Assembly (NCBI RefSeq): GCF_022539315.1 | Contig: NC_066338.1 | Location: forward strand, 372,001-436,000 | Direction of reading: 5' to 3' | Length of the DNA: 64,000 nt | Origin: Serinus canaria | Lineage: Eukaryota > Chordata > Aves > Passeriformes > Fringillidae | Shown here: in pieces, positions 7,690 through 64,000 of the stretch | Layout of the letters: each line of letters begins with the position of its first letter | Numbering within the stretch: the first letter of the stretch is position 1 | Made by a program: the position numbers and the translations under genes | The notes under the pieces: generated by a model | Databases searched by the model: none | The model's input: only the letters and a program-made list of their open reading frames with translations | What the model was told of the DNA's origin: nothing

Positions 7690-7692
7690 GGT

Positions 7693-31264: not shown

Positions 31265-31275
31265 TCTCCCCCTAG
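31265..31275 (-). promoter_or_regulatory. Polypurine tract of the ERVK provirus
   Basis: Minus strand reads ctagggggaga directly before the LTR TGTTG. This is the usual plus-strand DNA primer site during reverse transcription. Confidence 0.85.
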
Positions 31276-31428
31276 TTTTGTTTAAAAAGAAGAGAACTGG
31301 GTTCATGGTCAGAAATTTTGCCAAACCATGGTTGGTAAATTGGCTCCTCCTCTGCAGGAGAATCAGTGTTTTCTACTGAGGCTTCTGTGTCATCTATTTG
31401 AACACTAAGGGCTTCTAAATGGTACACT

Positions 31429-32686: not shown

Positions 32687-32754
32687 GGCGTCTCAAGACT
32701 GCACACAAACTGCAGGATCTAAACCGGTAAAAGGAAACTTAAAACAAACATGTA

Positions 32755-36420: not shown

Positions 36421-36427
36421 GTTTTTT
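36421..36427 (-). promoter_or_regulatory. -1 ribosomal frameshift heptamer A AAA AAC at the gag stop
   Basis: On the minus strand the last gag codons read CAA AAA AAC TGA. A AAA AAC fits the X XXY YYZ rule in the gag frame, lies directly before the TGA (36420-36418), and the -1 frame leads openly into protease. A downstream pseudoknot was not modelled. Confidence 0.85.
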
Positions 36428-37525: not shown

Positions 37526-37598
37526 TGGGCACAGGGGGCGGGGCCACCGTGGGAACAGGGGGCGGGGCCACCGTGGGAACAGGGGGCGGGGCCACAGT
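37526..37598. repeat. 24-bp tandem repeat inside gag, ~3 units
   Basis: ggcggggccaccgtgggaac recurs three times at 24-bp spacing. It encodes the SHGGPAPC-type repeat in the proline-rich part of Gag and keeps frame. Confidence 0.88.
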
Positions 37599-38379
37599 GG
37601 GACGTCACATCGGCAGACACCCCCTGGGAGGAGTAGAGGGGCGGAGCTGAGGGTACAGCAGGAAAGGGGGAGGGAAGGGAGGTGTCACGAGGAGCAGGAG
37701 GGGAGGGGGGTGGGGGAGGAATTTTGGGATGCTTAGGAGGATCTTGGGAAGAAGACGGCCAGGTATGGGAAGGTGCCACATGGCATCTTCTATCTTGTGG
37801 ACTCCCTAGGGCATGGGGGCCATTTTGGGGATCACTGCTCTCCGAAAAGCTAACACGTGCTCTGGGTTTCAGAGCAGGAGACGCAGGGTTTTGAGAAAGA
37901 TTCCAAGCTGTCTGGCTAGGACTATTTGGAGAGAGAGAATCAGGCATTTTAAAATGCTCAGGAAGTTGAGTTTTCTGAGCATTAGCAGAATGTGCACGCT
38001 TTAAGATACTAAGTTTAGGGGTAAAAGGTTTAGAAGTGGGAGGCGGAGAGACAGGGAGAGCAGGGGTACATTGCTTGTATTTAGGCTTTTTCTTCAGTTC
38101 CTTTTGCTTGAGCAAGGCTGTTCAAATTTGTAAACCCCAGTACACAAATTTAGCTGAAGAAATATCTCCAGACTGTCCTAAGGTTATTAATTCATTTCCT
38201 ACTTTATCCCAAAAATTAATATCATGGACTTCTTCAGGAGAAATTTGTGGGAAGTGTAGAAAAAGCCATTTTATAAACGGTTTCAATTTACCTTTAGAGA
38301 ATTTAACATTACCACTGACTAAAATCGCAATAATATTATAATACACTCCTTTTTGTGCAGCGCTTAAATTTGAGCCCAT

Positions 38380-39367
38380 TTTAGATGTAAAAAGCGCAGT
38401 ACAAAAAGTCCCGCCGACTGGAAATAAAGCCAAATCAACTACCGATTTCTAAAAAAAACTACTGACTAGAAGCGATAACGAGCAGACGTTAGCTTTTCAC
38501 AATGCAGCAGAGTACCCTGCTTTTAAAATAGCCGCGGCAACAGTGCTGACTTGGGAACTGCCCTGCCGCTGTGGAGGACAGAAAAAGCCTCCCCCGCCGG
38601 CTCCACGTGGCGAAGCCAAAACTGGGGCCGCCCCGCACCATGTGTAGAGATGAGAAAGCACCCCCCGCGCACCGCGCTGCGAGAGCCACCCCCCTGCACC
38701 GAGAGAGAGCAGCCCCGCCCCACGCCACGTGTAGAGAGCTCACCACACACCGAGCCGAGAGAGAGCAGCCCCCCCCCCCCCACGCCACGTGTACAGAGCT
38801 CCCCCACACCGAGAGACAACACGCTGCAGTGCCGAGCAGGGAGGGAAGGGTTGGGAGAGCTCTCCCGCTCTTCCACTGGCACCGCGAATTATAAAAGTGG
38901 CAAAGACACGCCGTAGTGAGCTATGTCTAACACAATATCGCTCCGGAATAAAACAAACAACCCACGGCAGGGTCAAAACAGTTCTCACGGCAGAGACTGT
39001 TTAAAAGCGAACAGTTTCACGGCAGAAACTTTTTTTTTTTTTTTTTTTGAGATTCTACTCCCTCTAAAGGGCACAGATACTCACCGAAATCGAAGTTGTT
39101 GATGGCGGTAAAAGCAGGACGTCTCTTCACTGGAACAGGACCCCCGCGGGCAAAAAGGGGGGCTCCACTATTCTCCCCTGGAAAATTGCTAACCAGAAAG
39201 GAGCTAATTTTCTAGGAGTACCGAACATTGCACAAGACTTCTTCTGGGAGATTGATCCCCAAGTCTTTGCTGAGAGCAATGCATTCAAAGCTCTCTAGCA
39301 GATGCTCAGCTGCCTTGAAGGTTTTCCGAGGTTCTGAGATTACTTCTTGGGCATTCAAATTCGATGT
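38380..39367 (-). other. ERVK provirus leader (5' untranslated region)
   Basis: About 990 nt between the PBS and the gag ATG with no convincing coding. It holds a ~55-bp GC-rich tandem duplication (about 38699-38812, cacgccacgtgta core), three ctgccgtg repeats (38945-39030 region), and a 19-nt T run on the plus strand (39030-39048, an A tract in the viral sense). It probably contains the packaging signal and splice donor, which I could not pinpoint. Confidence 0.6.
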
Positions 39368-39385
39368 GCCTCACGTTGGGCGCCA
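39368..39385 (-). promoter_or_regulatory. Primer-binding site, tRNA-Lys type
   Basis: Minus strand TGGCGCCCAACGTGAGGC resembles the Lys(1,2)-type primer-binding site of class II retroviruses, with one or two mismatches. Confidence 0.85.
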
Positions 39386-39390
39386 GTTAT

Positions 39391-39909
39391 TGCTTTCTCT
39401 TGTGTTAAAAGTGGCTACTGGGGATATTTCTCCTCAGAGACACCTTCGGCTCGCAAGCAGTTACTATTAAGCACTCGAGATAGGCCCATGCAAAGCGGAA
39501 CTAAGTTTACCTCTAGTAGAAAAGTCCAGGTGATAGTGAAGAGAAAGAGAGCGTGTTCTGCCGGAGAGTTAAATCCAGAGTTTATTCCAAGGCATTACAG
39601 TTCCGAATCTCAGTACTGCTCCGAACAGACAGCGACCGCATGGCTCCAACGCCTTTTAAGCTCACAGGAAGGTGGTGGGGGAGGACAGGTGAGCCACCAA
39701 CCAGGTGGGAGGGGGAGGGTCTCAGGGAACAATGACATCTGGACAGGCCAATGACCGCAGGCCTGAAAGGCATCTTTTGAACTTCTGCCAATCTCATGAT
39801 GCCCTTCCTGAAATGTGGATCTTGATACAGTAATCCGGAACTGGGCAGGGGACAGGCAAGGAGGAAGTAGTCACAGCTAAGGGGAAGAACCTAGCTTTAC
39901 ACCACAACA
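39391..39909 (-). repeat. ERVK provirus 5' LTR
   Basis: Minus strand starts TGTTGTGGTG at 39909. A TATA-like cttaaaagg lies near 39655 and AATAAA at 39586-39581. The 3' limit is uncertain: aaagca at 39391 leaves 5 nt to the PBS, whereas ttttaaca (ending 39403) would pair better with TGTT. Confidence 0.88.
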
Positions 39910-42900
39910 GACGCCTGTAAGACTGTGGCAGGAGGCTTTTTCTAGAACAATGTGCAGTTCTTCCCAATTCTATTTTTCCCTCCAATTACTTTGTACACTA
40001 ATATTTTTACACAGTCTTCCAGCAGTGGCATTTTACTCCTGGGGTAGAGTATTGCCCTGCCAGCTTTGGAATTCACTCGACTGTAGTTGTGTTCAAATTT
40101 GCTGATGGGACAAGGGTTTTTTGCTGAACACACTTTAGCAAGCAAGAGAGCTTCTTGGTCTTCAGATGCTATGAATCCCAGAAAAAGATGAATGAAGTGG
40201 TGACATGCCTTGTGTTTTGAAGAGAGATAAAAAACTTATTTCTGGGGTCACCTCCCTTTTGGACCAGAAAGCGCACAGAGGGCTTTGAAGCAGCACTTTC
40301 AGCCTATTTGCATTGACTAGGAAATCTGAGACAGAGCTTGCCCCAAGGTTTCTGCAAAAATGCTCTTTAATGCAACTGTTAACCAGACAATATCTCTGGG
40401 AAAATTTGCAGGGGCAGAAAGCAAGCCCTTCCTGGGAAATCTACAGAAACATTTCAGAAGTTATTCCCACTCACTGTTGCTAAGCTCTGCTGTCTAGCTG
40501 TCAGATATGCTTGGGACCATGTTGAACTAATTCTAAACGATGTTCTGAGGCTGCAATTTTGAGTGAACATAGGCATTTTCCATATGTGTCATATGGAAAA
40601 TATTTCTATTGGTAAAAATGAGTTTCACGGAAAACAAGAACAACATGGTAGAAAAAAAACTACATCACTAGAAGGAAGATGCTCAGAATTCCTCTTTTGA
40701 ATTTACACAGAATCAATATTTTCTACATAAGGTTGTGAAACTTATGAAGAAGTAGAAGTACATTCCACCTGACTGGTGCACAAGTTCATGTTTCCAACTT
40801 ACAAAAAACATATTATTCAAAGAAAAATGTTCTGCGTTGTGGAAAAGTAGCCCATTAGTAATTTTATCAAAGGTAGGATTAGATCAAGTTTTCCTACCAG
40901 ACAGTAGCAGTACTATGAAAAGCCTTTTGGCATCTATTTGACTAGAGGAAACTTGAGCAAGCAGAAGTGTCTTTCCCTGCTGCAAGCTGTACTTCCTATT
41001 TGCTACTGCTGCTTAAACATTGTCGAAAGAAAACTTGTCAAAATAAGACTACTGTATACAAGCAACTGGAACTATCCATTGCATTCCCTCCAATTTCAAC
41101 TAGAAAATATCAGACACACACTCTCGTTGAATATTCAAATGCATAGATGGAGTATACCATCACTAAGAAATGGGAACGCTGGACAAAGGAGCAAATGCAG
41201 ATGAATTTCAGAGAAGGAAATTATTGGAGATCTAACTGCAGTCCCTTGACTTTGCAAGAAATGATGCCCAGTAAATCCCAACCTGAAACATAAAGAACTC
41301 TGTTTTTGAAATGGGTTGCATCTATAGTCCTCTGTTCTTCCTATATGAAGAAACTGTGTTTGGAATCAATCTTCCAAGTGGTACAGCTAAAGACCTTAGA
41401 TACTTCAAAATTTGGGTTTTTTTCCAGAAGCAACTGTCTCAAAACCTCTTTAAACTGACTTTTCCCCTTAAGATGCCAAATTTTAAAAGAGCACCTTGTC
41501 ATTTAACAGGGTATTCCAAACATCATTTCCAAATTTAGACTGAAAGTAACGCTCTTCCTAGTTATCTTTCTTTTTTTTACAGTTGCCTGCTAACATAGGC
41601 AGCAAAGTAGAGAACAAACCACAGCTCTTTCTGGAGCATCTTGAACAAATGCCCTTTTGCTTATGTTCCAATCTTTCACTTCACCAAAATCCCTAACGAT
41701 GAAGAAAAGGTTGTGAAGGCATTACTAGTAGTATTTTATGGAAATGTATGGGTGTGATTTATCAAGTAGAATTTCTATCACATAGGTGATACTTGGCAAA
41801 TAGCAAATGAAGGGGTTTCTTTCAGCTCTCAGACTGATGTTAGATGTCAGTACTTTAATTAAAAGGTAACAAGAAGGATATTGTTTAACAGTGAACCTAA
41901 TTACACCCCTACCCATGGACATCTGAATCTTAGGAAGACACAGTGTCTGATTTAAAAAAAAAAAAAGAATTATCACAGTTTAAAGAAGCATATGATCATG
42001 AACACTTTGCTGATGGAACATAGCCTATTCATTGGCTGAAATGAAGCGGGTAGACAGGACATAGGAAATATTGTTTTGAGGATCAAACATTTATTTTCTA
42101 AAGTGATACTTACAGATAGTGGACTCACCAACTTCGATATTGCACAGTAGATAAGGGTACCTAACTTGCTCCATCATGTTTTCCCTTGGAATCATCATCC
42201 AAGGGGATTTTCCCCTGCCTCTGTGAAAATGTGCCTACCTTTTTCACAATACTTTTGCAGCAGCATTGTTAAGCCTGATCAGCTGGTATGGAGGGTGAAT
42301 TATCAGCAGCAAGGTGACTGGCCAGGGTCATTTGCTTCAATGGATTTTGATCTACCGCATATTTTGAAGACCTGCTTCAGCCCTGTTTGTTAAACACAGC
42401 CTTCAAATGGTGCTAAACAATTGTTCGCATGAAAAAGTACCTTCTGGTGCCTATACTGGGCCATATAATCTTTATTCTCTCCCTCAACTTCTCCATCACC
42501 TCTCATCTGTTTCACATGAGCTATGTTCAAGGTCCACAGGCTATTTTTCACAGAATCTTCAGGCCTGATGCAGTAAGAATGATGAACAGAACGCAGCTGG
42601 GATGAATTTTCCAGTTTGGATAAAACCTCTTGTGCACACAAATCCCCCCATGCCCAGAAAAACCTTCACTAGTCCTAGTGTTCTACCTTAAACAGCAATT
42701 TAGTCTGAAAGAAAAGCTTTTGTCTGAGAGTATCTGAGAGATTTGCATGAAGCACAGATATCTGACACATGCAATTTTGAATGTCATAAGAAAAAGAAAA
42801 TGGCAAGGAGTTTTTAATGTTATCGGTTTTAATTTTCAATTTCATGCACTTTTTCAAAAAATGTCAATCTCAAAGGCCATCAACAGGATTCAGTCATCTG

Positions 42901-42969
42901 TAAGTTAGTATTCATATCAAATGTGTTTCAAATCAAAAGAAGTTCAAACCTTTCCTCAAAGTTGATATG

Positions 42970-43120
42970 CCTAGATTTAGTATTTCTGATCTAGATTAGA
43001 AGAAAGGAAGACTTTTTTTTGCTCTTGGGGTGCTGGAACGCTGGAACAGGTTGCCCAGAGAAGTTGTGTTAGTCTCATCCCTGAACGTATTCAAGGTCAG
43101 CTTGGATGAGGCCTAGAACA
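42970..43120 (-). mobile_element. CR1 LINE 3'-region fragment (P2 copy)
   Basis: Reverse complement of the fragment at 28690-28850. It contains ggaacaggttgcccagagaa and aaggtcagcttggatgagg. Confidence 0.8.
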
Positions 43121-45139
43121 GCAACGAATGCCACCCTTGATGGTAGATAAACAGAGCTTGAATATAGAAGAAACTCAGATTGAAGTATCGGAGCAAATTT
43201 TTTCTCAGCTCTTGGGGTAAATTCAGAGGTGTACAAAATTGCATTTCTCTGTCATTTTCACTACTGTAACAGAAAGGTTAATGAAAAGGATGCAGAAGAT
43301 ATCAAATTTTAAAAGAGATGAGAACTACAACATCAAACACATGGGATGGGTTTCAACATGGGACACTCTCGGTGAGAAAATCTCTGTACTTCAACACTTC
43401 ATCCCAATCATTAGGATTCCATGAAGAGCCAAAGAAGGTGGCAAAATATCCTTCAGGACATTATTTATTGTAGTTCAGCCATTAGTTGGAACTGGTGTTT
43501 GAACCCATGTGGATGTACCACACACGCTTTCCATGCACTGAAAAATTACTGCTCGCAATGAATAAGCAATGAGGATCAAAACTGATTGAAAGCGTCTTAA
43601 AAAAGTCAAGAATTTCACTGTAAATGATCTATGATCAAAATACTTATTTCACCTTAGTGAGGGACAAATAAATTCTTCCATACAATGATGGTTTAAAATT
43701 TTCTAAACCAATGTTTTCTTCTGAAAAGACATCATCTAATTTTTTCTTCCTTTAGAAGAAAATATTCCTAGACATAGAACTAAGTAATTTTAAAGGAACA
43801 AATGAAAGGAAAATATTCTGCAAACAGAATTCAATGAAAAGCTGTGTTTTAAATATGAGGTAGATATTAAACCCAATTTGTGTACCAGAGATTTGAAACA
43901 GTGCACTGGCTATTTTGCCCACAAAGAGAGGCATTTAGCATTTCAGTCTTTTCCAAGGTGTTCATGATCTGCTATGCTGATCTCTGTGCGTGCCTCGGTG
44001 TGTGCAGAAGGGGGGGCATGTGAACGGGAGTGTCTATGTTTGCTTAACACTTGTAGTGGCAGATTCATGCCTCAGCTCCATCATTTTCTTTAGAAACTTC
44101 ACAGAGAGTGGATATGAAGTTTCATATCTAAAAGATATTAATCAATTCTCAAGTCACCCATAGTATTCTACCTTGTAAATCACATGCTTTCTCTTATATT
44201 TTATCAAACATACTCTCAAGCCGCATGGAGGAATGAGAATGCGGAGAATCCCTCCAATGTCTTGCAACTTTTACGCAAACAGATTTTCAAGAAGATCATC
44301 ATTTCTCTTTTAAATACGTCTGGGACAGGCATGATGGTGGTGTCAACCTGTTGGAGTTTTTCTTGCTGGGAGAAATTGTGCAAAAGGACTGGTTTTTCCA
44401 TTGACCAGTTACTGAATCAAATGCATGAACACATTTAAAATTCAACTGGGGTTTCCTTTTTCTAGCAGACTACTTCTAGAACTAGCTAGCAGACTCAAGA
44501 TGACTCTTTTTCTCTGTGTTTGTTTCTTTCCTATTTTCTTGGCTTCTTTGCAACTCTCTACACAATTTTAGAACGTTTTTCCCAACTCAAATTGTTTCAT
44601 AGACCTATAATTAGGATACGCTTTTTTCAAGGAATGTTTTAAATCTTTGTTAGAGTTGAGAAAGTTAAGGACATAGGTCTTTTCCTTCCCTTATGAATAT
44701 TGCAATGAAATAGTTAAATAAAGACCACCTCTTTATTTTTATTTGGAATCCAAGTAGATAATTCCCATACAGTAATACATTTGGTGGACCAGTATTTGCC
44801 ATTTTGATGTAAGTTGTCACCTCTTAACAATATGCCTTCTGTGACTACGTTGACAACATTTTTGGTAAAGGTCCTAACTGGTCTTAGACACACATAGGGA
44901 GAAATTTGCCCAGCCAGTGTCAGTCTTAAGCATGCATCTCAGAAGATCTTCCTCTAGCTGGGGAATTTTCCCATGAGAGGGATTCCTGGGAGAGAAGTTA
45001 TGGAAGAGATATAACTTGGAGTTTAATATTCTTCTTGAACACTACTTCAGGAACTTAAATCCCATGTCCACTTGGATCTGGCTCTGCACAGAGCTTTGTC
45101 ATGCCAGTCCTTGAAATGCATCTCTAAGAGAATTCACTA

Positions 45140-45740
45140 GCACAGAATGAATGAGGGTGGAAGGGGTCTGTGGGGCTCACCAAGTCCAATTCCCCTGCTT
45201 CCACCAGGATACCGAGAGCCCGTTGCCCAGGATTATATCTGGGCCTACCTTTAATGTCTTCAATGATCCACTCTCCACCATCTTTCTGGACACTCTGTGC
45301 CATGGTTCAGTCACCGTCACAGTAAAAAATAATTTTGTGATGTTCAGAGGCAATCTCCTGTATTTCAGTGTGTGCCCACTGCCTCTTGTCTTTTCACTGA
45401 GCATCATTGTAAAGACACTGGTTCCCTGCTCTTTGCACTATTCCTTCCCATATGTATGTGCGCTGCAATGTAGATAAACGTCAGAAACTTCCCTGAAGCC
45501 CAGGCAGACGATATTCTCTTCATCTACCAGGAGAGTTCATTCACCGGAGGAGTTTCAAGAGTTGTCAAGCACGAATTTCCCCTGGTAAATCCATGCTGAC
45601 TACATTCTTTTGTCTTCCTTCATGTGCCTGGCAATGCTTTTCAGGAATAGCTACTCCATCAACTAAACTTCCTGGGGATCAAAATGAGGCTGGCTGGCTT
45701 GTACTTTTCTGATTCCTCCTAGTTGCCTTTTGTAAAGATG
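45140..45740 (-). mobile_element. CR1 LINE fragment (P2 copy)
   Basis: Reverse complement of 26070-26680, with the same internal deletion, so the insertion and deletion predate the P duplication. Confidence 0.85.
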
Positions 45741-46693
45741 GGTGACATTTGCTTTCATCCAGTCTTTGGGCCCTTTCCTCAGTCACCATGATCCATCAAA
45801 CATGATCAGGAGTGGCCTCAGAAGAACATCTGCTAACACCCTTGAGACCTTTGCATCCATCTCAACAGGGCCTGTGGACTTTATGGAATACTTACCAATT
45901 CAATGACTATGATCATAGAAATTTGCATGGGATAAGAGGACATTTTAACAGGTACCTGAAGAGTGAGTGAAAAGAAATTTTCACTATTTCACATGCAATA
46001 GAAAAAAGTCAATGATTTCCAAATGTATTGCCTCCTAAGTAGACAATAATGTACTGGCTGGGTATTCCCCTAACAGATGAGAGCATCTGCTTGATGTCTC
46101 TTATGCGTGCAGACTATTCAAATTAGGTCATTTGAGTGGGGATTACTGGTCTTCCAATTTTCCTCCTGATGAATTTGGAATATTTACTGAAGCAAAAACC
46201 TGAAGATGAAAGCTTCATTTCCCATCAGCGCACTCTAACATCCCTGGACGTAATGCCATTGTTTCTCGCCAGCTGAGTTAAGAATTGATGACTACAAAGT
46301 GGATCAGCTCCAAAGGAAAGATCAAGGCTGGATAATATTCTCTCTTAGTAAAGCTATTTATCTCAAATGAAGTGACCAACTTCTAATCACTCACTGGCCT
46401 AAAGCTACAAGGAGGGGAAGATGGACCAGGTTTCCTTCCACTGCTGTTCTCTTTGTAACCTCAGTGTTTAATATGGGTATGAAGACATTCAAAAAGATAG
46501 TGTTGCAGAATTCATAAAATTCAGTCTTAAAAAACCATTTTTTTCAGCTGAAATGAATAGAGCAAATAAAATGTATAAGTTTGTCTTGCCCTGTTCTGAA
46601 GGTTTTGTTACTGGGACACCTTTCCTTATGGAAAACACTGTCCTTTCCTAAATACTCTCATATGGAGGAACATGCTTCTGATAAGAAGAGCAC

Positions 46694-51016: not shown

Positions 51017-51022
51017 ATTCCC
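51017..51022. repeat. Target-site duplication attccc (left)
   Basis: attccc precedes the 5' LTR and is repeated exactly after the 3' LTR at 54244-54249. Confidence 0.95.
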
Positions 51023-51410
51023 TGTCACCGACATAGTTTATGAAAAATCCTTTACTTAGGAATTTTCCTCTCCTGAGAGCTGAGAAGCCTCAGGAACGGA
51101 CTGTAAACAATTCTTATCTGCTGCTGTGGAATGCAACGGGGAGAAAGCTGTGATTGGCCCCGTCAGACTGTTTCCAATTAAGAGCCTATCACAATTCACC
51201 TGTCCAGCCTGTCTCAGGCTGAGAAGACTTCAGTTTACACATTCCTATTCTATTCTATTCTTAGCTTTGTAGTGAAATTCTTCTCTTTATTCTTTTAGTA
51301 TAGTTTTTCTATCTTATATATCATATAATAATAAACCAAGCCTTCTGATACATGGAGTCAACTGTCTTGTCTCTTCCCTCATCCTGGGACCCCCAGAAAA
51401 CCCTGTAACA
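51023..51410 (+). repeat. 5' LTR of the compact element
   Basis: Starts TGTCACCGAC and ends CCTGTAACA. A TATA-like ttatata lies at about 51315, close to AATAAA at 51330-51335, so the exact promoter is unclear. Confidence 0.93.
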
Positions 51411-51412
51411 AA

Positions 51413-51430
51413 TGGTGACCTCCGAGTGAC
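51413..51430 (+). promoter_or_regulatory. Primer-binding site of the compact element
   Basis: TGGTGACCTCCGAGTGAC, two nt after the LTR. The first eight bases fit a tRNA-Trp-type site and the rest fits only with gaps, so the tRNA identity is tentative. Confidence 0.6.
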
Positions 51431-51728
51431 AAAAGGAGCACCACCACGAAAGGTGAACACCGAGGACAGAACTGAGAGATGGTGCCTCGAGTGAAGAAAT
51501 CACCACAATTGGACCCTGAGTGAAGAAGAATTCTTCATTTGGTAAGCCCAGAGGAGCATTGCTACATTTGGGTGAACCCCGAGTGTTTAGCATTGATGGT
51601 CACCTACACCAGGGACCACAGGAGTGGCTTCTAGCCAGGAGCTGAAGAACTGACAATCCTGAAATTGGACAGAGTTCACAGCCGAGGCTGGCCACAGAGA
51701 GAACCTTTCGGAAAGTCTCCGAGACGAG

Positions 51729-53087
51729 ATGTCCGGGAGTCTTCGCGGCACAGAGCAGCCTGCTGAAGCCCAGAGGACACTGTTGCAAGGTACTGTTTAC
51801 ACTGCCCTTCCTGAAAATGCTGCCCTTCGTGTGAGGCAGATTCGGTTATGGCAGAGGGTGCCTATGGAGATGGAGGTTCCATTCTCTCCCTCAGAGGAGA
51901 AAATTATTGACCTCTGGCGAAAATGGGGTGATGAGGACAGCATTCCTATGCTAACGACACATTTCTATGAGTTTTTCCGGTGGGCAAAACACCATGGCTT
52001 TTTCTCTGATGTGCTGTATGCCTTTGACTCATATGTTTGGGAATGCATGGAATTCATTATCAGAGGTCTTGTCTACCGGGGACTCGGTTTTCCTTCGATC
52101 TACCAGCATTTCAGAACTCTCTTCCCAGTTTTGAAACGGAAAGCATTAGCATATCAGTGGATTGCAAATGCACGGGGTTTGTCTCCCTTCTCGCTGGAGC
52201 TGGAAAAAGGCAAGCCTGTCCGAATCCGCTGCCTGGAAATCTCCAGCCCCCCCGAATCGGAGCGGGGGGGTGACGCTTTGCCCGCGGCAGAAGAGAAGTT
52301 TTTTTCTTCGACCTTGGAGCAGGCGCCGACGGACCTGCCTCCCCCCCCTCAGAGGGGAGGTGGGTTGGCTCTGTCATCTGAACCGGGGCCAAGGGCCCCA
52401 CCCCTGCCCGCCCCAGAGGAGGGGCCGGTCCCTGCAGCCCCTCCCACAGGCCCGCCTCTGGCCGGGGTGGATCCATCGCTTCCAACAGAGCTTGTCGGCG
52501 GTTCCGGGACGAAAGCACCGCCCTCCGAGGCTTCGCCCGCGTTGCTAGGCGACACACTCAACAGCAGCGACGATCGACGGCAGCCCGTCCTGGAGTTGGG
52601 ACCTGCAGCCTCTCCCGCGGGCCCGCCTCCGGCGGGGGTCAGTCCCACGCCGTCCGCGCCAGTCCCTCCCGCGCCCGACCCTCCAGCAGAGCCCATACGG
52701 GCTCCGACCGCGGCGGCTGCCGCGGCACCCGCGATCAGCCGGGACCCTCCCCCGAGCTTTTCGGGCTGTCCCGAGGCTGCCCCTGCGAGGGGAGCTGGGA
52801 CGGGGGAAGGGGACTCAGGCTTGCCCCTCCGTGGGGGGGATGTGGCTAGGCAGCTGATCGCAGGCTCGGACCGCCTGCTTGCTTTTAATCTCGGTGTTTT
52901 TCGCGGGCTGACCCCGGTCTTGTTCGGGGTTTCCTGCTGGGGGTTGGAATGCCTGACTCCCCCTGCGCGCCCTTGCGGCGTGGGGGAGGGGGCTCCTGAG
53001 CCGTCTGCCTCCGGTCCCCAGCCCACAGGGGGTGGTGCCGAGGGACAGACAGAGGGAACGTCTTCTGCATTTACGATGCAGACGTAG
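51729..53087 (+). CDS. Gag-N-terminus-like protein of the compact element (452 aa)
   Basis: An uninterrupted ORF from ATG 51729 to the stop ending at 53087. Residues ~50-160 form a helical matrix-like domain (SPSEEKIIDLWRKWG; FFRWAKHHGFFSD). Residues ~175-350 are Pro/Ala/Gly-rich and likely disordered. The C-terminal ~90 residues match nothing I know. There is no capsid homology region, zinc knuckle, protease or late-domain PPxY. The spacing pattern of the N-terminal domain matches the Gag start of the provirus at 59967 (LFLWAREQGFFSD). It may help packaging or membrane targeting, or interfere with a helper particle; function is unknown. That the ORF stays open despite LTR divergence is noteworthy. 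Confidence 0.8.
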   Translation: MSGSLRGTEQPAEAQRTLLQGTVYTALPENAALRVRQIRLWQRVPMEMEVPFSPSEEKIIDLWRKWGDEDSIPMLTTHFYEFFRWAKHHGFFSDVLYAFDSYVWECMEFIIRGLVYRGLGFPSIYQHFRTLFPVLKRKALAYQWIANARGLSPFSLELEKGKPVRIRCLEISSPPESERGGDALPAAEEKFFSSTLEQAPTDLPPPPQRGGGLALSSEPGPRAPPLPAPEEGPVPAAPPTGPPLAGVDPSLPTELVGGSGTKAPPSEASPALLGDTLNSSDDRRQPVLELGPAASPAGPPPAGVSPTPSAPVPPAPDPPAEPIRAPTAAAAAAPAISRDPPPSFSGCPEAAPARGAGTGEGDSGLPLRGGDVARQLIAGSDRLLAFNLGVFRGLTPVLFGVSCWGLECLTPPARPCGVGEGAPEPSASGPQPTGGGAEGQTEGTSSAFTMQT

Positions 53088-53511
53088 GAGACACAGTGCA
53101 AAGTGAGCATCGCTCATCTGCTGTGGGGACAAAGCACCCCCAGACATGGGGTGTGGTTCCCTGGGAAAGCTTTTCTTCCCCAGCTGCTGGTCTGCGTCAG
53201 TTCAGCGGGGCTGAAGCGTTCGGTCACTCATGCTGCTAGGATATCGGCAGCTGTGTGCCGGATTGAGAGAACACAGAGCCCGCTCCGTGGGCGGGGTCTG
53301 GGCTGTTTGGCTCGGTTCCCTGGGCCAGGGCCTCCCTGCCAGCGCCTGTTGGGTTTGGGGGCTTTGCTTTCCCCGTTGGGGCCTGGGCCACCGTTCTGTG
53401 AGCCAGGTCTGGGGTCCCTGTTCCCTCCACGGGGGCCGGGGCCCCCGCAAACGGTGGCTGGTGCACCAGCCTGTTTGGGGCCTCAGTGGGCTATTGTCTG
53501 CTACTGCTCTT
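53088..53511 (+). other. GC-rich internal region, unassigned
   Basis: GC-rich sequence between the ORF and the A tract. Reading frames exist on both strands but show no recognisable domain. It could be eroded gag/pol or captured sequence. Confidence 0.4.
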
Positions 53512-53537
53512 AAAAAAAAAAAAAAAAAAAAAAAAAA
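53512..53537 (+). repeat. Internal A26 tract
   Basis: 26 consecutive A in the sense strand of the element, ~320 bp before the 3' LTR, followed by ttaaataaaaaggg. It marks a sharp change from GC-rich to AT-rich sequence. Confidence 0.95.
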
Positions 53538-53855
53538 TTAAATAAAAAGGGTTGAAAGAGCTAGCAGCTCAGAAAATTTTGCAAGCCTGTTTCAGGACCA
53601 AAAGGGACTTTTCAGCACTGTCAAAGAAGAACATCTTCAGTTTGGACTTTTTCCTAAAACTCAGCTATTTGGACTTGAAGCAATGAACTTTCCTGGGACT
53701 GTTTTTGCATTTTCTTCTATTTTAAGATTGTTTTGGTGATGTGATGGGAATTTGGTTTTTGCAGGTGAAGAGTTTCCCTGATGGTTCCACACCAGAATTT
53801 GATTGACCTTTTGATTTCATTTTCTTTATATTTTTCTAAAATTAAAAGGGTGAGA
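53538..53855 (+). other. 3' untranslated part and PPT of the compact element
   Basis: AT-rich, with no ORF. It ends aaaagggtgaga directly before the LTR, a polypurine tract. Confidence 0.7.
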
Positions 53856-54243
53856 TGTCACCGACATAGTTTATGAAAAATCCTTTACTTAGGAATTTTC
53901 CTCTCCTGAGAGCTGAGAAGCCTCAGGAACGGACTGTAAACAATTCTTATCTGCTGCTGTGGAATGCAATGGGGAGAAAGCTGTGACTGGCCCCGTCAGA
54001 CTGTTTCCAATTAAGAGCCTATCACAATTCACCTGTTCGGCCTGTCTCAGGCTGAGAAGACTTCAGTTTACACATACCTATTCTATTCTTAGCTTAGCTT
54101 TGTAGTGAAATCCTTCTCTTTATTCTTTTAGTATAGTTTTTATATCTTATATATCATATAATAATAAACCAAGCCTTCTGATGCATGGAGTCAACTGTCT
54201 TGTCTCTTCCCTCATCCTGGGACCCCAGAAAACTGCTGTAATA
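53856..54243 (+). repeat. 3' LTR of the compact element
   Basis: 388 bp, same limits as the 5' LTR, ending tgtaata (C to T in the terminal CA). Followed by the attccc duplication. Confidence 0.93.
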
Positions 54244-54249
54244 ATTCCC

Positions 54250-54960: not shown

Positions 54961-57900
54961 GACGTCTGTAAGACTGTGGCAAGAGGGTTTTTCCAGAACA
55001 ATGTGCAGTTCTTCCTAATTCTATTTTTCCCTCCAATTACTTTGTACACTAATATTTTTACGCAGTCTTCCAGCAGTGGCATGTTACTCCTGGGGTAGAG
55101 TATTGCCCTGCCAGCTTTGGAATTGACTCGAATGTAGTTGTGTTCAAATTTGCTGATGGGACAAGGGTTTTTTGCTGAACACACTTTAGCAAGCAAGAGA
55201 GCTTCTTGGTCTTCAGATGTTATGAGTCCCAGAAAAACTTGAATGAATGGTGACACGCCTCGTGTTTTGAAGAGAGATCAAAACCTTATTTCTGGGATCA
55301 CCTCCCTTTTGGTACAGAAAGCGCACAGAGGGCTTTGAAGCAGCACTTTCAACCTCTTTACATTGACTAGGAAATCTGAGACAGAGCTTGCCCCAAGGTT
55401 TCTGCAAAAATGCTCTTTTGATGCAACTGTTAACCAGACAATATCTCTGGGAAAATTTGCAGGGGCAGAAAGCAAGCCCTTCCTGGGAAATCTACTGAAA
55501 TGGTTCAGAAAGTATTCCCACTCACTGTTGCTAACCTCTGCTGTCTAGCTGTCGGATATGCTTGGGACCATGTTGAAATAATTCTAAACAATGTACTGAG
55601 GCTGCAATATTGAGTGAACATAGGTATTTTCCATATGTCTCATATGGAAAATATTTCTTTTGGTAAAAATAGTTCCACAGCAAACAAGAACAGCATGGTA
55701 GAAAAAAACCTACATCACTAGAAGGAAAATGCCCAGAATTCCTCTTTTGAAGTTACACAGAATCAATATTTTCTACATAAGTCTGTGAAACTTATGAAGA
55801 AGGAGGAGTACATTCCACCTGACTAGTGCACAAGTTCATGTTTCGAACTTACAAAAAACATACTATTCAAAGAAAAATGTTCTGTCTTGTGGAAAAGTAG
55901 CCCATTAGTAATTTTATCAAAGGTAGGATTAGATCAAGTTTTCCTACAAGACAGTAGCAGTACTATGAAAAGCCTTTTGGCATCTATTTGACTACACGAA
56001 ACTTGAGCAAGCAGAAGTGTCTTTCCCTGCTGCAAGCTGTACTTCCTATTTGCTACTGCTGCTTAAACATTGTCGAAAGAAAACTTGTCAAAATAAGACT
56101 ACTGTATACAAGCAACTGGAACTATCCATTGCATTCCCTCCAATTTGAACTAGAAAATATCAGACACACACTCTCGTTGAATATTCAAATGCATAGATGG
56201 AGTATACCATCACTAAGAAATGGGAACGCTGGACAAAGGAGCAAATGCAGATGAATTTCAGAGAAGGAAATTATTGGAGAGCTAACTGCAGTCCCTTGAC
56301 TTTACAAGAAATGATGCCCAGTAAATCCCAACCTGAAACATAAAGAACTCTGTTTTTGAAATGGGTTGCATCTATGGTCCTCTGTTCTTCCTATATGAAG
56401 AAACTGTGTTTGGAATCAATCTTCCAAGTGGTACAGCTAAAGACCTTAGATACTTCAAAATTTGGGTTTTTTTCCAGAAGCAACTGTCTCAAAACCTCTT
56501 AAAACTGACTTTTCCCCTTAAGATGCCAAATTTTAAAAGAGCACCTTGTCATTTAACAGGGTATTCCAAACATCATTTCCAAATTTAGACTGAAAGTAAC
56601 GCTCTTCCTATTTATCTTTCTTTTTTTTACAGTTGTCTGCTAACATAGGCAGCAAAGTAGAGAACAAACCACAGCTCTTTCTGGAGCATCTTGAACAAAT
56701 GCCTTTTGCTTATGTTCCAATCTTTCACTTTGCCAAAATCCCTAACGATGAAGAAAAGGTTGTGAAGGCATTACTAGTAGTATTTTATGGAAATGTATGG
56801 GTGTGATTTATCAAGTAGAATTTCTATCACATAGGTGATACTTGGCAAATAGCAAATGAAGGGGTTTCTTTCAGCTCTCAGACTGATGTTACATGTCAGT
56901 ACTTTAATAAAATGATAACAAGAAGGATATTGTTTAACAGTGAACTTAATTACAGCCCTACCCATGGACATCTGAATCTTAGGAAGAGACAGTGTCTGAT
57001 TTAAAAAAAAAAGTAAGGAATTATCACAGTTTAAAGAAGCATATGATCATGAACACTGTGCTGATGGAACACAGCCTATTCATTGGCTGAAATGAAGCGG
57101 GTAGACAGGACATAGGAAATATTGTTTTGAGGATCAAATATTTATTTTCTAAAGTGATACTTACAGATAGTGAACTCACCAACTTCGATATTGCACAGTA
57201 GATAAGGGTACCTAACTTGCTGCTTCATGTTTTCCCTTGGAATCATCATCCAAGGGGATTTTCCCCTGCCTCTGTGAAAATGTGCCTACCTTTTTCACAA
57301 TACTTTTGCAGCAGCATTGTTAAGCCTGATCAGCTGGTATGGAGGGTGAATTATCAGCAGCAAGGTGACTGGCCAGGGTCATTTGCTTCAATGGATTTTG
57401 ATCTACCGCATATTTTGAAGACCTGCTTCAGCCCTGTTTGTTAAACACAGCCTTCAAATGGTGCTAAACAATTGTTCGGGCTTTGGACCGCATGAAAAAG
57501 TACCTTCTGGTGCCTGTACTGGGCCAGATACTCTTTATTCTCTCCCTCAACTTCTCCATCACCTCTCATCTGTTTCACATGAGCTATGTTCAAGGTCCAC
57601 AGGCTACTTTTCACAGAATCTTCAGGCCTGATGCAGTAAGAATGATGAACAGAACGCAGCTGCGATGAATTTTCCAGTTTGGATAAAACCTCTTGTGCAC
57701 ACAAATCCCCCCATGCCCAGAAAAACCTTCACTAGTACTACTGTTCTACCTTAAACAGCAATTTAGTCTGAAAGAAAAGCTTTTGTCTGAGAGTATCTGA
57801 GAGATTTGCATGAAGCACAGGTATCTGACATATGCAATTTTGAATGTCATAAGAAAAAGAAAATGGCAAGGAGTTTTTAATGTTACCGGTTTTAATTTTC

Positions 57901-58030
57901 AATTCCATGCACTTTTTCAAAAAGTGTCAATCTCAAAGGCCATCAACAGGATTCAGTCATCTGTAAGTTAGTATTCATATCAAATGTGTTTCAAATCAAA
58001 AGAAGTTCAAACCTTTCCTCAAAGTCGATA

Positions 58031-58185
58031 TGCTTAGATTAAGTATTTCTGATCTAGATTAGAAGAAAGGAAGACATTTTTTTGCTCTTGGGGTGCTGGA
58101 ACGCTGGAACAGGTTGCCCAGAGAAGTTGTGTTAGTCCCATTCCTGAACGTATTCAAGGTCAGCTTGGATGGGGCTTTGAACAGC
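58031..58185 (-). mobile_element. CR1 LINE 3'-region fragment (P3 copy)
   Basis: Third copy of the fragment at 28690-28850, reverse orientation. Confidence 0.8.
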
Positions 58186-58448
58186 AACAAATGCCACCCT
58201 TGATGGTAGATAAACAAAGCTTGAATATAGAAGAAACTCAGATTGAAGTAGAGGAGCAAATTTTTTCTCAGCTCTTGGGGTAAATTCAAAGGGGTACAAA
58301 ATTGCATTTCTCTGTCATTTTCACTACTGTAACAGAAAGGTTAATGAAAACTAATCAGGAGACAACAAATTTTAAAAGAGATGAGAACTACAACACCAAA
58401 CACATGGGATGGGTTTCAACATGGGACACTCTCGGAGAGAAAATCAGT

Positions 58449-58507
58449 GTTGAAGTACAGAAGTACACTGTTGAAGTACAGAAGTACACTGTTGAAGTAC
58501 AGAAGTT
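58449..58507. repeat. 21-bp tandem repeat, ~2.8 units
   Basis: gttgaagtacagaagtacac repeats at 58449, 58470 and 58491. P1 and P2 have a single related unit, so the expansion is private to P3. Confidence 0.92.
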
Positions 58508-59554
58508 CCAAAGAAGGCGGCAAAATATCCTTCAGGACATTATTTATTGTAGTTCAGCCATTAGTTGGAACTGGTGTTTGAACCAGTGTGGATGTACCAC
58601 ACACGCGTTCCATGCACTGAAAAATTACTGCTCTCAATGAATAAGCAATGAGGATCAAAACTGATTGAAAGCGTCTTAAAAAAGTCAAGTATTTCACTGT
58701 AAATGATCTATGATGAAAATACTTATTTCACCTTAGTGAGGGACAAATAAATTCTTCCATACCATGATGGTTTAAAATTTTATAAACCAATGTTTTCTTC
58801 TGAAAAGACATCATCTAATATTTTCTTTTTTAGAAGAAAATATTCCTAGACATAGAACTAAATAATTTTAAAGGAACAAATGAAAGGAAAATATTCTGCA
58901 CACAGAATTCAATGAAAAGCTGTGTTTTAAATATGAGGTAGATATTAAACCAACTTTGTGTACCAGATATTTGAAACAGTGCACCGGCTATTTTGCCCAC
59001 AAAGAGAGGCATTTAGCATTTCAGTCTTTTCCAAGGTGTTCATGATCTGCTGTGCTGATCTCTGTGCATGCCTAGGTGTGTGCGGAATGGGGGGGCATGT
59101 GAAGGGGAGTGTCTATGTTTGCTTAACACTTAAAGTGGCAGATTCATGCCTCAGCTCCATCATTTTCTTTAGAAACTTCACAGAGAGTGGATATGAAGTT
59201 TCATATCCAAAAGATATTAATCAATTCCCAAGTCATCCATTTTACTCTACCTTGTAAATCACATGCTTTCTCTTATATTTTATCAAATATACTTTCAAGC
59301 CGCATGGAGGAATGAGAATGCGAAGAATCCCTCCAATGTCTTGCAACTTTTACGCAAAGAGATTTTCAAGAAGATCATCATTTCTCTTTTAAATACGTCT
59401 GGGACAGGCATGATGGTGGTGTCAACCTTTTGGAGTTTTTGTTGCTGGGTGAAATTGTGCGAAAGGACTGGTTTTTCCATTGACCAGTTACTGAATCAAG
59501 TGCATGAACACATTTAAAATTCAACTGGGGTTTCCTTTTTCTAGCAGACTACTT

Positions 59555-59850
59555 TGTCGCCCTGATTTTGTAAAACTTTGTAAAGCCTTCTGATGCTTAT
59601 ATTCTTTCAACAAACTTTCACACACACAATTCTGTAAATAACCTATGTTTTGCATTCTTTCATGGAGGTGGAGAGAATTGATGGACCCTTGGTCTGTCCA
59701 GTGGCATTGGAGAGGTGGCACTGTCACCCTCCAATCCACTGTCACCTTTGGAAAACTATAAATGTTGGAGTCAGAAAATAAAGGTTCTCTTTTTTTGTTC
59801 CCCTCGTGAGCAGAAGTGTCTGTGTCATCATTTCGTGCCTTATCTCAGCA
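59555..59850 (+). repeat. 5' LTR of a class II provirus running off the window
   Basis: 296 bp starting TGTCGCCCTG and ending CTCAGCA. TATA box tataaat at 59757-59763 and AATAAA at 59777-59782. It interrupts P3; the empty site is ctacttctag in P2 (44470). The predicted right duplication (ctactt) lies outside the window. Confidence 0.9.
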
Positions 59851-59852
59851 TC

Positions 59853-59870
59853 TGGTGAACCCTTTCGTGT
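59853..59870 (+). promoter_or_regulatory. Primer-binding site of the class II provirus
   Basis: TGGTGAACCCTTTCGTGT, two nt after the LTR. The primer tRNA is not identified with confidence. Confidence 0.55.
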
Positions 59871-59966
59871 GAATTTGAGACCTCGAGTGTCGCGCGGCCT
59901 TGCTGGGTGAGGTTGTATCCTTTCCCCCCCTTGCTTGCTTGGCGTTGCCTGCTGCTCTTATGAGAG

Positions 59967-61438
59967 ATGGCAGCCTCTGTGAGTTCCTCGGATGATTCTG
60001 TTCTTTTAGAACTCTGGAAAGTTCTCCTCGACCGGAGGGGAGTTTCCCTTTCCTGGAGTGAGTTTGAGAGTCTGTTTCTGTGGGCCAGAGAGCAAGGGTT
60101 TTTTTCGGACCCTTTGGAGGCGCCCTCTAGGGAGGCGTGGTCTCGCATGGGGGATCGTCTCATGGTTGCTCTCCTTGACGATTGTTCGGTGGATGTGAGA
60201 TCGCTGATGGTGCACTGGCAAAAGTTGAGTGACGTTTGGCGGGGGTCTCCTCGTTATAGCTCTCAGTGTTCCCTAGGGACCCCTTCTGTCTCGGATGTGG
60301 AGGAGGGGGAGTCTGATTTTCTGTATGACGCAGGACCCTCCCCCCCACCCCGAGAGGGATAGCTGGGGGGCAGCTCCGCCTCTGAGGGCGATGTCTGTTC
60401 CCCCGGGGTGGATTGGGCTCCTGCCCAGCTGGTCCCGAGCCCGGCGGGGGGTGCCCCGTGGGCATCTGGGGGCTCGGTGGAGCCGGGGGGTCGCCCTCGC
60501 CCCCTGGCGGGACGGGGAGGGACCCTCCCTCCCTGTGTGCCTTCCCGGTGCCTGGGGACGGCGGGCAGTCACGGGCCCCGCTACCGCCTCTGTTTGACTC
60601 TGATTCCGTGATGACTCTGTGTCCGCACTGTGGTGTATCCACCAAGTACCCCCTGGCTGCAGTGGGGATGGCTTCGCCTCCCCCTGGGTCTGTCGCTGAC
60701 ATGCTGTTGGGCACGGGGCATTTTAGTGATGTTCAGGGGCAGGTTGGCTATGATCCTCTTGTGCTTCAACAGGCCCACGAGCTGGGCGTGGCGGCACTGA
60801 TTCAGGCTGTGGAGGTGGCTGCTCCGCAGGCGCCGTATGAGACCATTCGCCAAAGGGCTGATGAGCCGTTCATGGACTATGCAATGCGGCTGTCAGCAGC
60901 TCTGGAGAGGCAGGTGTCTGATGCTATGACAAGGGATCGCCTCCTTTCGAACATGTTAAAACTTAACAGCAATGAGGCTTGTAGGAGGGTCATAGCGGCT
61001 CTGCCTGCAACTGCTACTATCGCAGACATAGCAGAGGCCTGTTCGAATTTCAACCTTGTGAGGCCAAAGTTGGGTGCCGTGGCTACTGCTGTGCAGCCAG
61101 TCTGGGCGGCGCCGCAGAGCCACTGGCCGCAGCAGGGGAATGCACAGAATGGCAAGAAGCGGGGGAAGAAGACGCAGAAGGCCAAATATCCCATGTTTTT
61201 ATGTGGTCGGTGTGGACGGCCTGGTCACATGTCCAATGCTTGCAAGGCGACGGCTCATGTTAATGGCCAGGCTTTGCCGGGTTCGGGAAACTGGAAGCAG
61301 AGCTCCCCGGGGAGATGCGCTCTGACACAAGTCTCTCTCCAGACCCTGGAGCCGATGGAGGTCTGCTCTGCCGGCTTGCGGCCAGCACCCGCGGATCAGC
61401 AGGTGCAGATGTCTGCACCGCAGCAACTGTTGTCTTAG
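59967..61438 (+). pseudogene. gag: Class II provirus gag, frame disrupted
   Basis: ATG 59967 opens a 131-codon matrix-like frame (LWKVLLDRRGVSLSW; LFLWAREQGFFSD) that stops at 60362. A C7 run at 60340-60346 is a likely place for the frame change. A second frame (open from about 60386 to 61438) carries the capsid C-terminal part with a major homology region (about 60845-60910) and one zinc knuckle (CGRCGRPGHMSNAC). Total coding span is about 490 codons, short for Gag, and the capsid N-terminal domain is not recognisable, so a deletion is likely in addition to one or two frame changes between 60340 and 60600. Confidence 0.88.
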
Positions 61439-62087
61439 AATCTTGTCGGATACACAAGATTCCCCTGGATGCTTTTGGTCCCTTGGGTAGAGGCATGAGT
61501 GCTCTCCTGATGGGGAGGTCTAGCGCCACCATTCAGGGCATCATTGTGCACCTGGGGCTCATTGATGCAGACTTCACAGGGCAGATTTGTGCCATGGTTT
61601 CCACACCCACCCCCCCGTCACAATCCCAAGAGGGACGCGCATTGCTCAACTTGTGCCTTTTAAGTCCTCTGTTCGCAGGACGGCTGACTGGTCACGTGGT
61701 GTGGGCGGCTTTGGATCCACTGGGTCGCCTCAAGTTCGCTGGATCACCGTTCTGTCCAAGGACCGTCCCGAGATGCTGTGCACCCTGTCCAACCCTGGTG
61801 CGACGCCATCGGACATCCGCCTCCGCGGACTTCCTGACAGTGGGGCTGATGTCACGATTCTCTCCCTTGCTGCCTGGCCCCCGGAGTGGCCCCTGGATCC
61901 GGTGGAGACGCCTGTCACAGGACTGGGAGGGACGGCGCAATGTTTCGTGAGCCAGCGACCCGTGCTGGTCGCAAACTCGGAGGGACAGACGGCCTGGGTT
62001 AGGCCTCATGTTACCTCTACCCCTGCTAACCTCTGGGGGAGGGATGTTCTGTCCGCCTGGGGGGTGCGCATCGGGACGGGTTTTTGA
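61315..62087 (+). pseudogene. pro: Class II provirus dUTPase-protease region, one frameshift
   Basis: The first frame (to 61950) has dUTPase motifs: RGSAGADV, GRSS and GLIDADFTGQI (Phe where Tyr is usual). A frame change in a C7 run near 61611-61617 moves coding to a second frame (61587-62087), with a basic IPRGTRIAQL segment, the aspartic protease site DSGA (residues 84-87 of that frame; Ser as in alpharetroviruses) and a GRDVL motif. The protease frame ends at TGA 62085-62087, directly at a slippery heptamer. It overlaps the gag end in the -1 frame, but I found no convincing slippery site there. Confidence 0.88.
62078..62084 (+). promoter_or_regulatory. Probable -1 frameshift heptamer G GGT TTT at the pro stop
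   Basis: In the protease frame the end reads ACG GGT TTT TGA. G GGT TTT fits X XXY YYZ, and the -1 frame continues openly as RT. Confidence 0.65.
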
Positions 62088-62839
62088 TGGGGGCCACTGC
62101 GACGAAGGGCGCAGACTGTTCTACGCCTCCTATACGGTGGCTGGTAGACAAACCTGTTTGGGAGAACCAGTGGCCCCTCCCTCATGAAAAATTGGTCGCC
62201 CTTCGAAATCTGGTGCAGGAGCAGTTGGACCAGGGTCATCTGGAGCCTTCTACCAGTCCCTGGAACACTCCTGTCTTCTGCATCAAAAAGAAATCTGGGA
62301 AATGGAGGTTGTTGCAAGACCTCCGAAAGGTCAATGCCGTGATGGAAGGCATGGGAACGTTGCAGGTGGGCATGCCATCGTCTACCATGCTTCCCGCGGA
62401 CTGGCCGATCCTCATTGTGGATCTGAAGGATTGTTTCTTTACAATTCCTATGCATCCCAATGACAGGCCGAAATTTGCCTTCACGGTGCCAGCAATTAAC
62501 AACGCTGAGCCGGCACAGAGATATCAATGGAGGACGCTGCCCCAGGGCATGCGCAATTCCCCAGCCATATGCCAATGGTATGTGGCCCAGGCCTTGTCTG
62601 GAGTTCGCAAGCAGTTTCCTGATGCACGTCTGTATCATTATATGGACGACATTTTGGTGGCTGCGTCCACCCAGGATGAGCTGCTGAGGATTCAGCCTCG
62701 GTTGCTGGATGCTTTGCATGCTCATGGGCTGCAAGTGGCTCCAGAAAAGTTCAACAACAACCACCTTGGAAGTATTTGGGGGTCAAAATTCTGGAACAGA
62801 CAATTTGTCACCAAGAGGTGCAATTTGTGCATTCAGTGA
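62084..62839 (+). pseudogene. pol: Class II provirus pol, RT first part
   Basis: A 251-codon frame with the fingers/palm motif VDLKD (112-116), LPQG (152-155) and active site YMDD (186-189). Useful coding ends near 62750, where a one-base frame change leads to a short out-of-frame tail stopping at 62839. There is no true initiation codon; expression would be by frameshift from pro. Confidence 0.94.
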
Positions 62840-64000
62840 AGACACTGAATGATGCTCAGAAATTGGTAGGTTTCATCACTTGGTTGCGTCCATATTTGGG
62901 ACTGACCGATGCACAGCTGTCTCCACTGTATGATTTGTTGAAAGGAGACAATGATCTAAAGTCACCTCGCACATTGACCCCTGAGGCGCAAAAGATGCTG
63001 GAGGTGGTTCAGCAAGCTGTTTCGGCTTGCCAAGTTCATCGCATTGATCCCTCCGTTGATGTCACTGTATTCATCACCACTCCAGATTCGCATCCCACAG
63101 GTATCATTGGACAGTGGAGTGACAAATGGTCCGATTCCTTGCACATCTTGGAATGGGTTTTCCTGCCCCATCAGCCGCAGAAGATGGCAACTGCATTGTT
63201 TGAGCTAATCGCTCGCTTGATAATCAAATGCCGGCAACGGTGTTTGCAATTGATGGGTGCGGATCCCGCAAAGATTGTACTCCCGGTGCAACGGGAGGAT
63301 TTTGACTGGAGCTTTGCAAACATTGTGTCCCTGCAGAGTGCTCTGGAAAACTTTTCAGGGCAGATCACTTATCATCTGCCCAGCCATAAGCTGTTGCATG
63401 TGGCGAAATTCACACGAATGTCTTTGCGGCCCAAAAATAGTCAGGAACCCGTGCAAGGACCCACCGTCTTCACTGACGGTTCCGGGAGGACAGGAAAGGC
63501 CATTGTTACCTGGAAGGATGGATCTGAGTGGCAGGTTTTGGAAGGTCATGAGGATGGATCAGCCCAATTGGTTGAACTGAGGGCTGCTGTCATGGCATTT
63601 GAGAAATTTTCCCAGGAGCCTTTCAACTTGGTCACGGATTCCGCCTATGTGGCCGACATCGCGCAGCGATTGGGTCATTCGGTTTTGAAGGAGGTCAGTA
63701 ATCCTGCCTTGTTCCATTTGCTGAAGACCTTGTGGCGTGCCATTCAGGCTCGGGTTCATCCCTTTTATGTTCTGCATGTGAGGAGTCACACCTCTTTGCC
63801 AGGCTTTATAGTGGAAGGTAACGCGAGGGCTGACAAGTTGGCTAACCCAGCGTGGGTAGCACCTCAGCCTGATACACTCGCGCAGACCAAGGCATCACAT
63901 GGGTTTTTCCACCAAAACGCACATACCCTGCAGAAGCAGTTTCAGCTGACGCCAACTGAGGCTCGTGACATTGTTGAGTCGTGTGATGACTGCCACGGGC
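62750..64000 (+). pseudogene. pol: Class II provirus pol, RT thumb, RNase H, integrase start (cut by window end)
   Basis: This frame (codon at 62761) is open to the window end, about 415 codons. It holds the RT thumb/connection, RNase H with Asp (VFTDGSG, about 63463-63483), Glu (VELRAAV), Asp (VTDSAYV) and Asp (GNARADKLA), then the integrase zinc-binding region with its HH and CC pairs ending near 63990. All visible catalytic residues are kept. It is separated from the RT active-site part by the frame change near 62750. Confidence 0.93.

Follow-up and report, generated by a model that had tools for sequence, protein, structure and literature searches.

A 64,000-nucleotide stretch of the canary (Serinus canaria) genome (C27:372001-436000, hereafter the window) contains a complete long terminal repeat (LTR) element, whose internal region codes for one protein with a matrix (MA)-like N-terminus. 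The MA part was under purifying selection during the multiplication of the family, and recombination of the element with pol of a class II endogenous retrovirus (ERV) family, also represented in the window, has occurred. The element is best explained as a member of a finch LTR family that is class II (betaretrovirus-like) and non-autonomous; it probably parasitises a class II ERV, by which it is mobilised in trans, and has kept a selected MA-plus-C-terminal protein.

In the window element, the LTRs show 96.4% identity in a gapped alignment, while 18 of 388 columns differ without gaps. A preliminary description of this DNA had listed matched 388-bp LTRs, a primer binding site (PBS), a polypurine tract (PPT) and an exact ATTCCC target duplication, all of which were found in place (Table 1). 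The PBS-like sequence, TGGTGACC, begins two bases past the 5′ LTR and is presumably that of tRNA-Trp; scanning the window for Rfam families and tRNAs gave no match. The PPT, AAAAGGGTGAGA, immediately precedes the 3′ LTR. The paired LTRs, PBS, PPT and target duplication identify the element as an LTR retroelement, and it is non-autonomous in that neither Pfam nor its short internal length reveals a reverse transcriptase (RT) or integrase.

The assembly searched comprises 1.05 Gb in 684 contigs; only part of the first-look candidates was scored, and the match rates refer to the scored places. The LTR search produced 2466 candidates, with 40/40 scored places at at least 93%; the leader search gave 283 (40/40 at at least 95%; in part of the copies the leader is of a shorter type, which covers only about 206-318), the 3′-region search 319 (40/40 at at least 94%) and the MA-part search 437, all 150 scored places being matches. 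Nineteen family loci (L048-L066) were fetched, many of them picked for long frames or paired LTRs and not as a random sample. Both LTRs are present in 17 of these, with an internal length of 2269-2561 and the parts arranged as LTR, leader, MA, Pro-rich region, C-terminal region, poly(A), AT-rich region, LTR; the 3′ half is missing from L048, and L066 is a chimera with its 3′ LTR in L067. In the window element, as in each of the 18 loci inspected (L049-L066), TGGTGA lies just 3′ of the 5′ LTR. LTR divergence in the fetched copies (Kimura two-parameter distance) ranges from 0 (L050) to 0.09 (L060), with a median of 0.016, and members of the family have inserted recently. Since the same order of parts recurs in many copies, chance is excluded for the structure, and the private deletion of a single gag-pol copy is ruled out by its presence in 17/19 fetched copies. 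Thus, the LTR, MA and fetched-copy surveys bear out the non-autonomous family that the preliminary description had proposed: the copy count by LTR and ORF (open reading frame) that it called for found the same structure genome-wide, and the outcome that it had named as fatal, a structure confined to this copy, does not hold.

The 150 MA places include 50 on contig C31 and 20 on C27, which together total 34.5 Mb. The avian W chromosome is described as a refuge of ERVs (PMC8310711), and this pile-up recalls it, C31 being a candidate W sequence only. Two copies, L050 and L053, carry a clearly different MA (77-78% DNA identity, with the alignment stopping at 408 of 498), together with LTR and 3′ parts as in the family, and L050 has identical LTRs; we read this MA as a swapped or fast-changing variant.

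The “single intact 452-codon ORF” of the preliminary description proved correct as to the presence of one ORF (51729-53087), but this is not full length: an in-frame stop, and not a frameshift, terminates it, and the same frame is open for about 135 codons beyond. Gag-only frames of 547-652 codons, reaching to or past the poly(A), are found in 10/19 fetched loci, many chosen for long frames; by our own count, stop-to-stop frames longer than 500 codons occur at 29/150 MA places, and a stop falls inside MA at 31/150. At 53512-53560, the poly(A) of 26 bases is followed by a second PPT-like stretch, AAAAAGGG, and all ten long fetched frames enter such lysine codons. The absence of a recognised capsid, zinc knuckle, protease, RT or integrase agrees with the earlier account: no Pfam family at E 1 and no PDB sequence at E 10 matched the window ORF, and no Pfam family matched L057, L064, P0001 or P0004 at E 5.

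Five relatives were found in the protein database, four from finches and P0004. P0001 and P0002 (house finch) and P0003 and P0005 (canary) match the element ORF wholly or partly, under gene-model names such as “proline-rich protein 36-like”, “basic proline-rich protein-like”, “uncharacterized” and “atherin-like”; in P0005, the “atherin-like” one, we read the shared piece as element sequence inside a gene model. L057 is 75% identical to house finch P0001 (635 aa) in MA, 58% in the Pro-rich region, 79% in the C-terminal block and 68% after it; against P0004 (634 aa), the values are 45%, 32%, 52% and 37%, respectively. The C-terminal block is therefore at least as conserved as MA. The preliminary description saw only a Gag N-terminus followed by a long Pro/Ala-rich extension; the matrix-like N-terminus stands, but the extension holds this conserved block, for which Pfam and the protein database gave no relatives outside the family. 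Among viral contigs, 24 pattern matches were obtained and none was confirmed.

The gag of the class II ERV located at 59.55-65.16 kb matches the element MA at its start. The structure model of the element MA is helical, with the matrix of mouse mammary tumour virus as the best solved match; from the Foldseek and BFVD results, the rows considered were those for mammary tumour virus matrix or gag. The N-terminus thus looks like a Gag matrix in the model, in agreement with the “matrix-like” label first given to it. A whole-protein model of P0001 had a predicted local distance difference test score of 37, with nothing outside MA worth a structure search. A 6-bp target duplication marks class II (ERVK, betaretrovirus-like) elements. 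Such duplications were called by eye in 13 of the 17 fetched two-LTR copies and in the window element, three copies being mismatched and one impossible to call; in these calls, the LTR end was shifted by 1-2 bases in L051, L059 and L065, and L059 repeats 7 bases. For songbird LTRs, the target-duplication rule is given in general terms where PMC6523648 treats it.

The ratio of nonsynonymous to synonymous substitutions (dN/dS) was analyzed in 32 MA copies, after four of other lengths had been dropped from 36; three contain one stop each, and stop codons were skipped. The ratio declines from 0.90 at dS below 0.05 to 0.33 at dS 0.20-0.30. The observed mean ratio was 0.49, the slope 0.20 and the farthest-quarter ratio 0.36, against 0.72, 0.49 and 0.68 in neutral simulations on the same tree, and the observed values were reached in 1, 0 and 0 of 200 simulations, respectively. 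A neutral relic ORF is thus ruled out for MA, and the dN/dS measurement called for in the preliminary description removes neutral evolution of this part as an objection. Across the long ORF in ten copies, the corresponding ratio of polymorphisms (pN/pS) in the reading frame is 0.60-0.68 and the lowest of the three frames in 4/4 segments; the margin is small (0.61 versus 0.70 in MA, 0.68 versus 0.73 in the C-terminal segment), and all ten copies have open frames, which slightly favours the reading-frame result.

The 3′ end of a chimeric copy (L067:421-800) was used as a query for further chimeras. The 41 matches listed comprise eight with pol at at least 97% running into the family LTR, one more at 90%, 31 ending near the LTR edge and a single LTR piece. 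Of the eight, seven follow an MA place at a distance of 4.1-4.3 kb, and the other (C27:5327630) is represented by its 3′ half; at one further MA place (C387), the pol end and LTR piece appear as a split match. Junctions were read at eight MA places (L066, L078-L084) and are of three kinds: from the poly(A) to ERV position 62142 or 62143 (L066, L080, L083), from a shared tract near 53479 to 62134-62136 (L078, L081, L084), and a switch to 62247 (L079, L082). Past the junctions, RT is 97.0-98.4% identical to that of the window ERV; seven of the eight loci continue into the family 3′ LTR, and one was observed with paired LTRs and a target duplication. L066 switches a second time at the PPT, where 16 nt spanning the PPT-LTR edge are identical in the element and in the ERV at 59.55-65.16 kb; a short tract at about 53450-53480, in the C-terminal region of the element, likewise resembles the RT start of that ERV. 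Switches at short shared stretches are expected when two RNAs packaged in the same particle are reverse transcribed. The three kinds of junction suggest three separate recombination events, a number that the tree does not prove: it includes the four of the eight chimeric MAs that were fetched, requires two changes for them and is compatible with a single origin. For bovine ERVKs, recombination of competent with defective elements was taken as evidence of co-packaging (PMC10924933).

The candidate helper gives Pfam matches to Gag_p24, zf-CCHC_5, RVP, RVT_1, RVT_thumb and RNase_H, and encodes capsid, CCHC, protease, RT, RNase H and integrase between LTRs that are 97.6% alike. Its LTR is unlike that of the gag-only family, and its gag frame is broken after MA in the window copy. 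We infer that its lineage was the actual helper, and that the retained protein has a role in the lineage that is copied. In this mechanism, the element RNA would be transcribed from the family LTR and carried into particles of a class II ERV of this type, whose enzymes would perform reverse transcription and integration, the capsid probably coming from the ERV too. The protein kept, a Gag matrix domain followed by a Pro/Ala-rich linker and the conserved C-terminal block, would benefit its own RNA, most likely by directing either this RNA or the protein itself to where the helper assembles; the matrix domain could bring the protein and bound RNA to the site of helper Gag assembly, and the C-terminal block may bind RNA or Gag. 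Purifying selection on MA while the family multiplied implies that the protein confers an advantage on its own RNA.

A more specific version, which we put forward tentatively, sees the element as a retroviral satellite with a dedicated protein. This would be a Gag derivative that is anchored by its matrix and has no capsid, and its C-terminal block might have taken over RNA capture, so that its RNA would enter helper particles in preference to the helper genome, with occasional pickup of RT and integrase by template switching.

It is rather unlikely that there is or was a complete element, sharing both LTR and MA with the family, that acted as parent and helper alike, so that the MA-plus-pol loci would be its damaged copies and the gag-only family would have lost pol. 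The eight places where pol at at least 97% directly adjoins the family LTR, and the one at 90%, would fit such a parent (with the limit noted for C27:5327630), as would the tract resembling an RT start that the end of the element coding region retains; however, all eight junctions read pass from the ORF to RT with no capsid, zinc knuckle or protease between them, RT and the ORF share a frame in a single chimera and are out of frame in 7/8, and simple loss would not be expected to give three junction kinds. Moreover, in the midpoint-rooted tree of 35 MAs, the four chimeras do not stand apart but join ten further copies to form a starred group of 14 (95/97); L017 and L026, also on the tree, have no match to the 3′ part in the fetched stretch and are putatively gag-only.

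The retention of MA without a recognisable capsid or zinc knuckle, together with the purifying selection on it, could also be expected of a Gag interference factor, a capsid-less matrix competing with helper Gag for membrane or partners, where damping of the helper would favour the host or the element. This appears improbable: selection acts on multiplying lineages, and a pure blocker of the helper would not, we argue, spread its own RNA; furthermore, motifs that might reveal such an action are not shared, since among 13 family proteins the late-domain motif P[TS]AP occurs in 7/13, PPxY in 2/13, and YPxL and CCHC in 0/13. That the ORF has no protein function, its open frames being left from recent copying and the constraint acting on the RNA (a packaging signal in gag), is very improbable. 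The youth of the copies, the stops already present in MA at 31/150 places and a pN/pS below 1 in frames 1 and 2 in 5/8 cases would fit it. Against it, the MA codon signal lies below 200/200 neutral simulations on two measures and 199/200 on the third, frame 0 has the lowest pN/pS in 4/4 segments, and even the distant P0004 retains 45-56% identity in MA and in the C-terminal block.

The window contains other repeats. A young ERV on the minus strand (30987-39909) has 279-bp LTRs that are 99.3% identical and, by eye, long ORFs resembling gag, protease, RT and integrase and a 398-aa env, with a PBS near 39385 that we take to be tRNA-Lys-like. Positions 1-4770 hold a head-to-tail array of a 483-bp unit, with about ten copies that are 93% alike, and a stretch at 12.7-14.0 kb is inverted and 86% alike to part of this array. 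Segmental duplications pair 25116-30284 with 41506-46693 (inverted, 96%) and 39910-44475 with 54961-59554 (direct, 95.5%); L047:1666-3750 extends one of them past the window. The segment 6842-7692 contains 3.8 tandem copies of a 57-bp repeat beside an env-like 205-aa ORF (7075-7692, minus strand, by eye).

Table 1. Features of the gag-only element and of the candidate helper ERV, in window coordinates.
Feature	Position	Strand	Basis
Left target-site duplication, ATTCCC	51017..51022	+	read from sequence
5′ LTR, 388 bp, start TGTCACC, end TGTAACA	51023..51410	+	LTR alignment; genome matches
Leader	51411..51728	+	genome matches at least 95% (40/40 scored; 283 candidates)
PBS, tRNA-Trp-like	51413..51430	+	TGGTGA directly 3′ of 5′ LTR
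MA-like domain of ORF, 166 codons	51729..52226	+	genome matches, helical model, selection tests
Pro/Ala-rich linker, length differs among copies	52227..52754	+	comparison of copies
Conserved C-terminal block from FSGCP motif, includes in-frame stop terminating window ORF	52755..53087	+	identity to P0001 and P0004
Remainder of C-terminal region, same frame, open to poly(A) in ten long fetched copies	53088..53511	+	
Internal poly(A), 26 bases; one switch point to ERV pol in chimeric copies	53512..53537	+	
AT-rich 3′ region, PPT AAAAGGGTGAGA at its end	53538..53855	+	genome matches at least 94%
3′ LTR, 388 bp	53856..54243	+	LTR alignment
Right target-site duplication, ATTCCC	54244..54249	+	read from sequence
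Candidate helper class II ERV	59555..64000 in window, ends 65.16 kb	+	Pfam; LTR comparison
Helper LTR	59555-59847	+	
Helper MA	59967-60359	+	
Helper capsid and CCHC	60470-61435	+	
Helper protease	61566-62084	+	
Helper RT	from 62117	+	
Helper RNase H and integrase zinc domain	to window end	+	
Helper integrase core and 3′ LTR	beyond window, about 1.16 kb, in L047		

The element works like several known parasites, from which it differs in retaining the matrix end of Gag and a new conserved block. ERVL-MaLR elements of mammals (THE1, MST, MLT) are described as having one putative gag ORF and no pol or env, and as unable to propagate alone (PMC10735291). The songbird element similarly has only a gag ORF in its internal region (the matrix part of gag); unlike them, it resides in a songbird, has an apparently class II-like matrix, 6-bp duplications and no recognised capsid or zinc knuckle, and preserves joins with ERV pol. 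ERVL-MaLR are of class III origin with 5-bp duplications, and membership in that group is ruled out by the 6-bp duplications and the apparent kind of matrix. The TR-GAG elements of plants, as presented in PMC8704663, have two LTRs and a single GAG ORF, and transposition of one was observed in Arabidopsis; this example, which encodes a 562-aa GAG, closely resembles a potentially autonomous element. The songbird element shares the two LTRs and single gag-type ORF, but keeps only the matrix and an unrelated C-terminal block, and no gag domain model recognises its ORF (no Pfam family for the window ORF or the four other sequences, at the thresholds given above). Bovine ERVK[2-1-LTR] D-type elements are reported as non-autonomous, without functional genes, and as recombining with competent elements, hence co-packageable (PMC10924933); unlike these, the songbird element retains one ORF with a selected MA part. 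In ETn/MusD and in the mysTR-related ERVKs of deer mice, parasites with replaced internal sequence share a stretch before the 3′ LTR, and the deer-mouse non-autonomous subfamilies are described as having no obvious coding capacity (PMC10089650); the songbird element likewise has replaced internal sequence and shares a stretch before its 3′ LTR with the helper-type ERV, whereas it keeps coding capacity, unlike those subfamilies. A literature search found no description of a matrix-only songbird element, which is no proof of absence.

Gag-only parasites are already known. Here, a matrix is combined with a new conserved block, its MA is measurably selected, and copies joined to the pol of an identified ERV family are present in the same genome; this allows direct tests of which ERV acts as helper and of what a Gag without capsid does.
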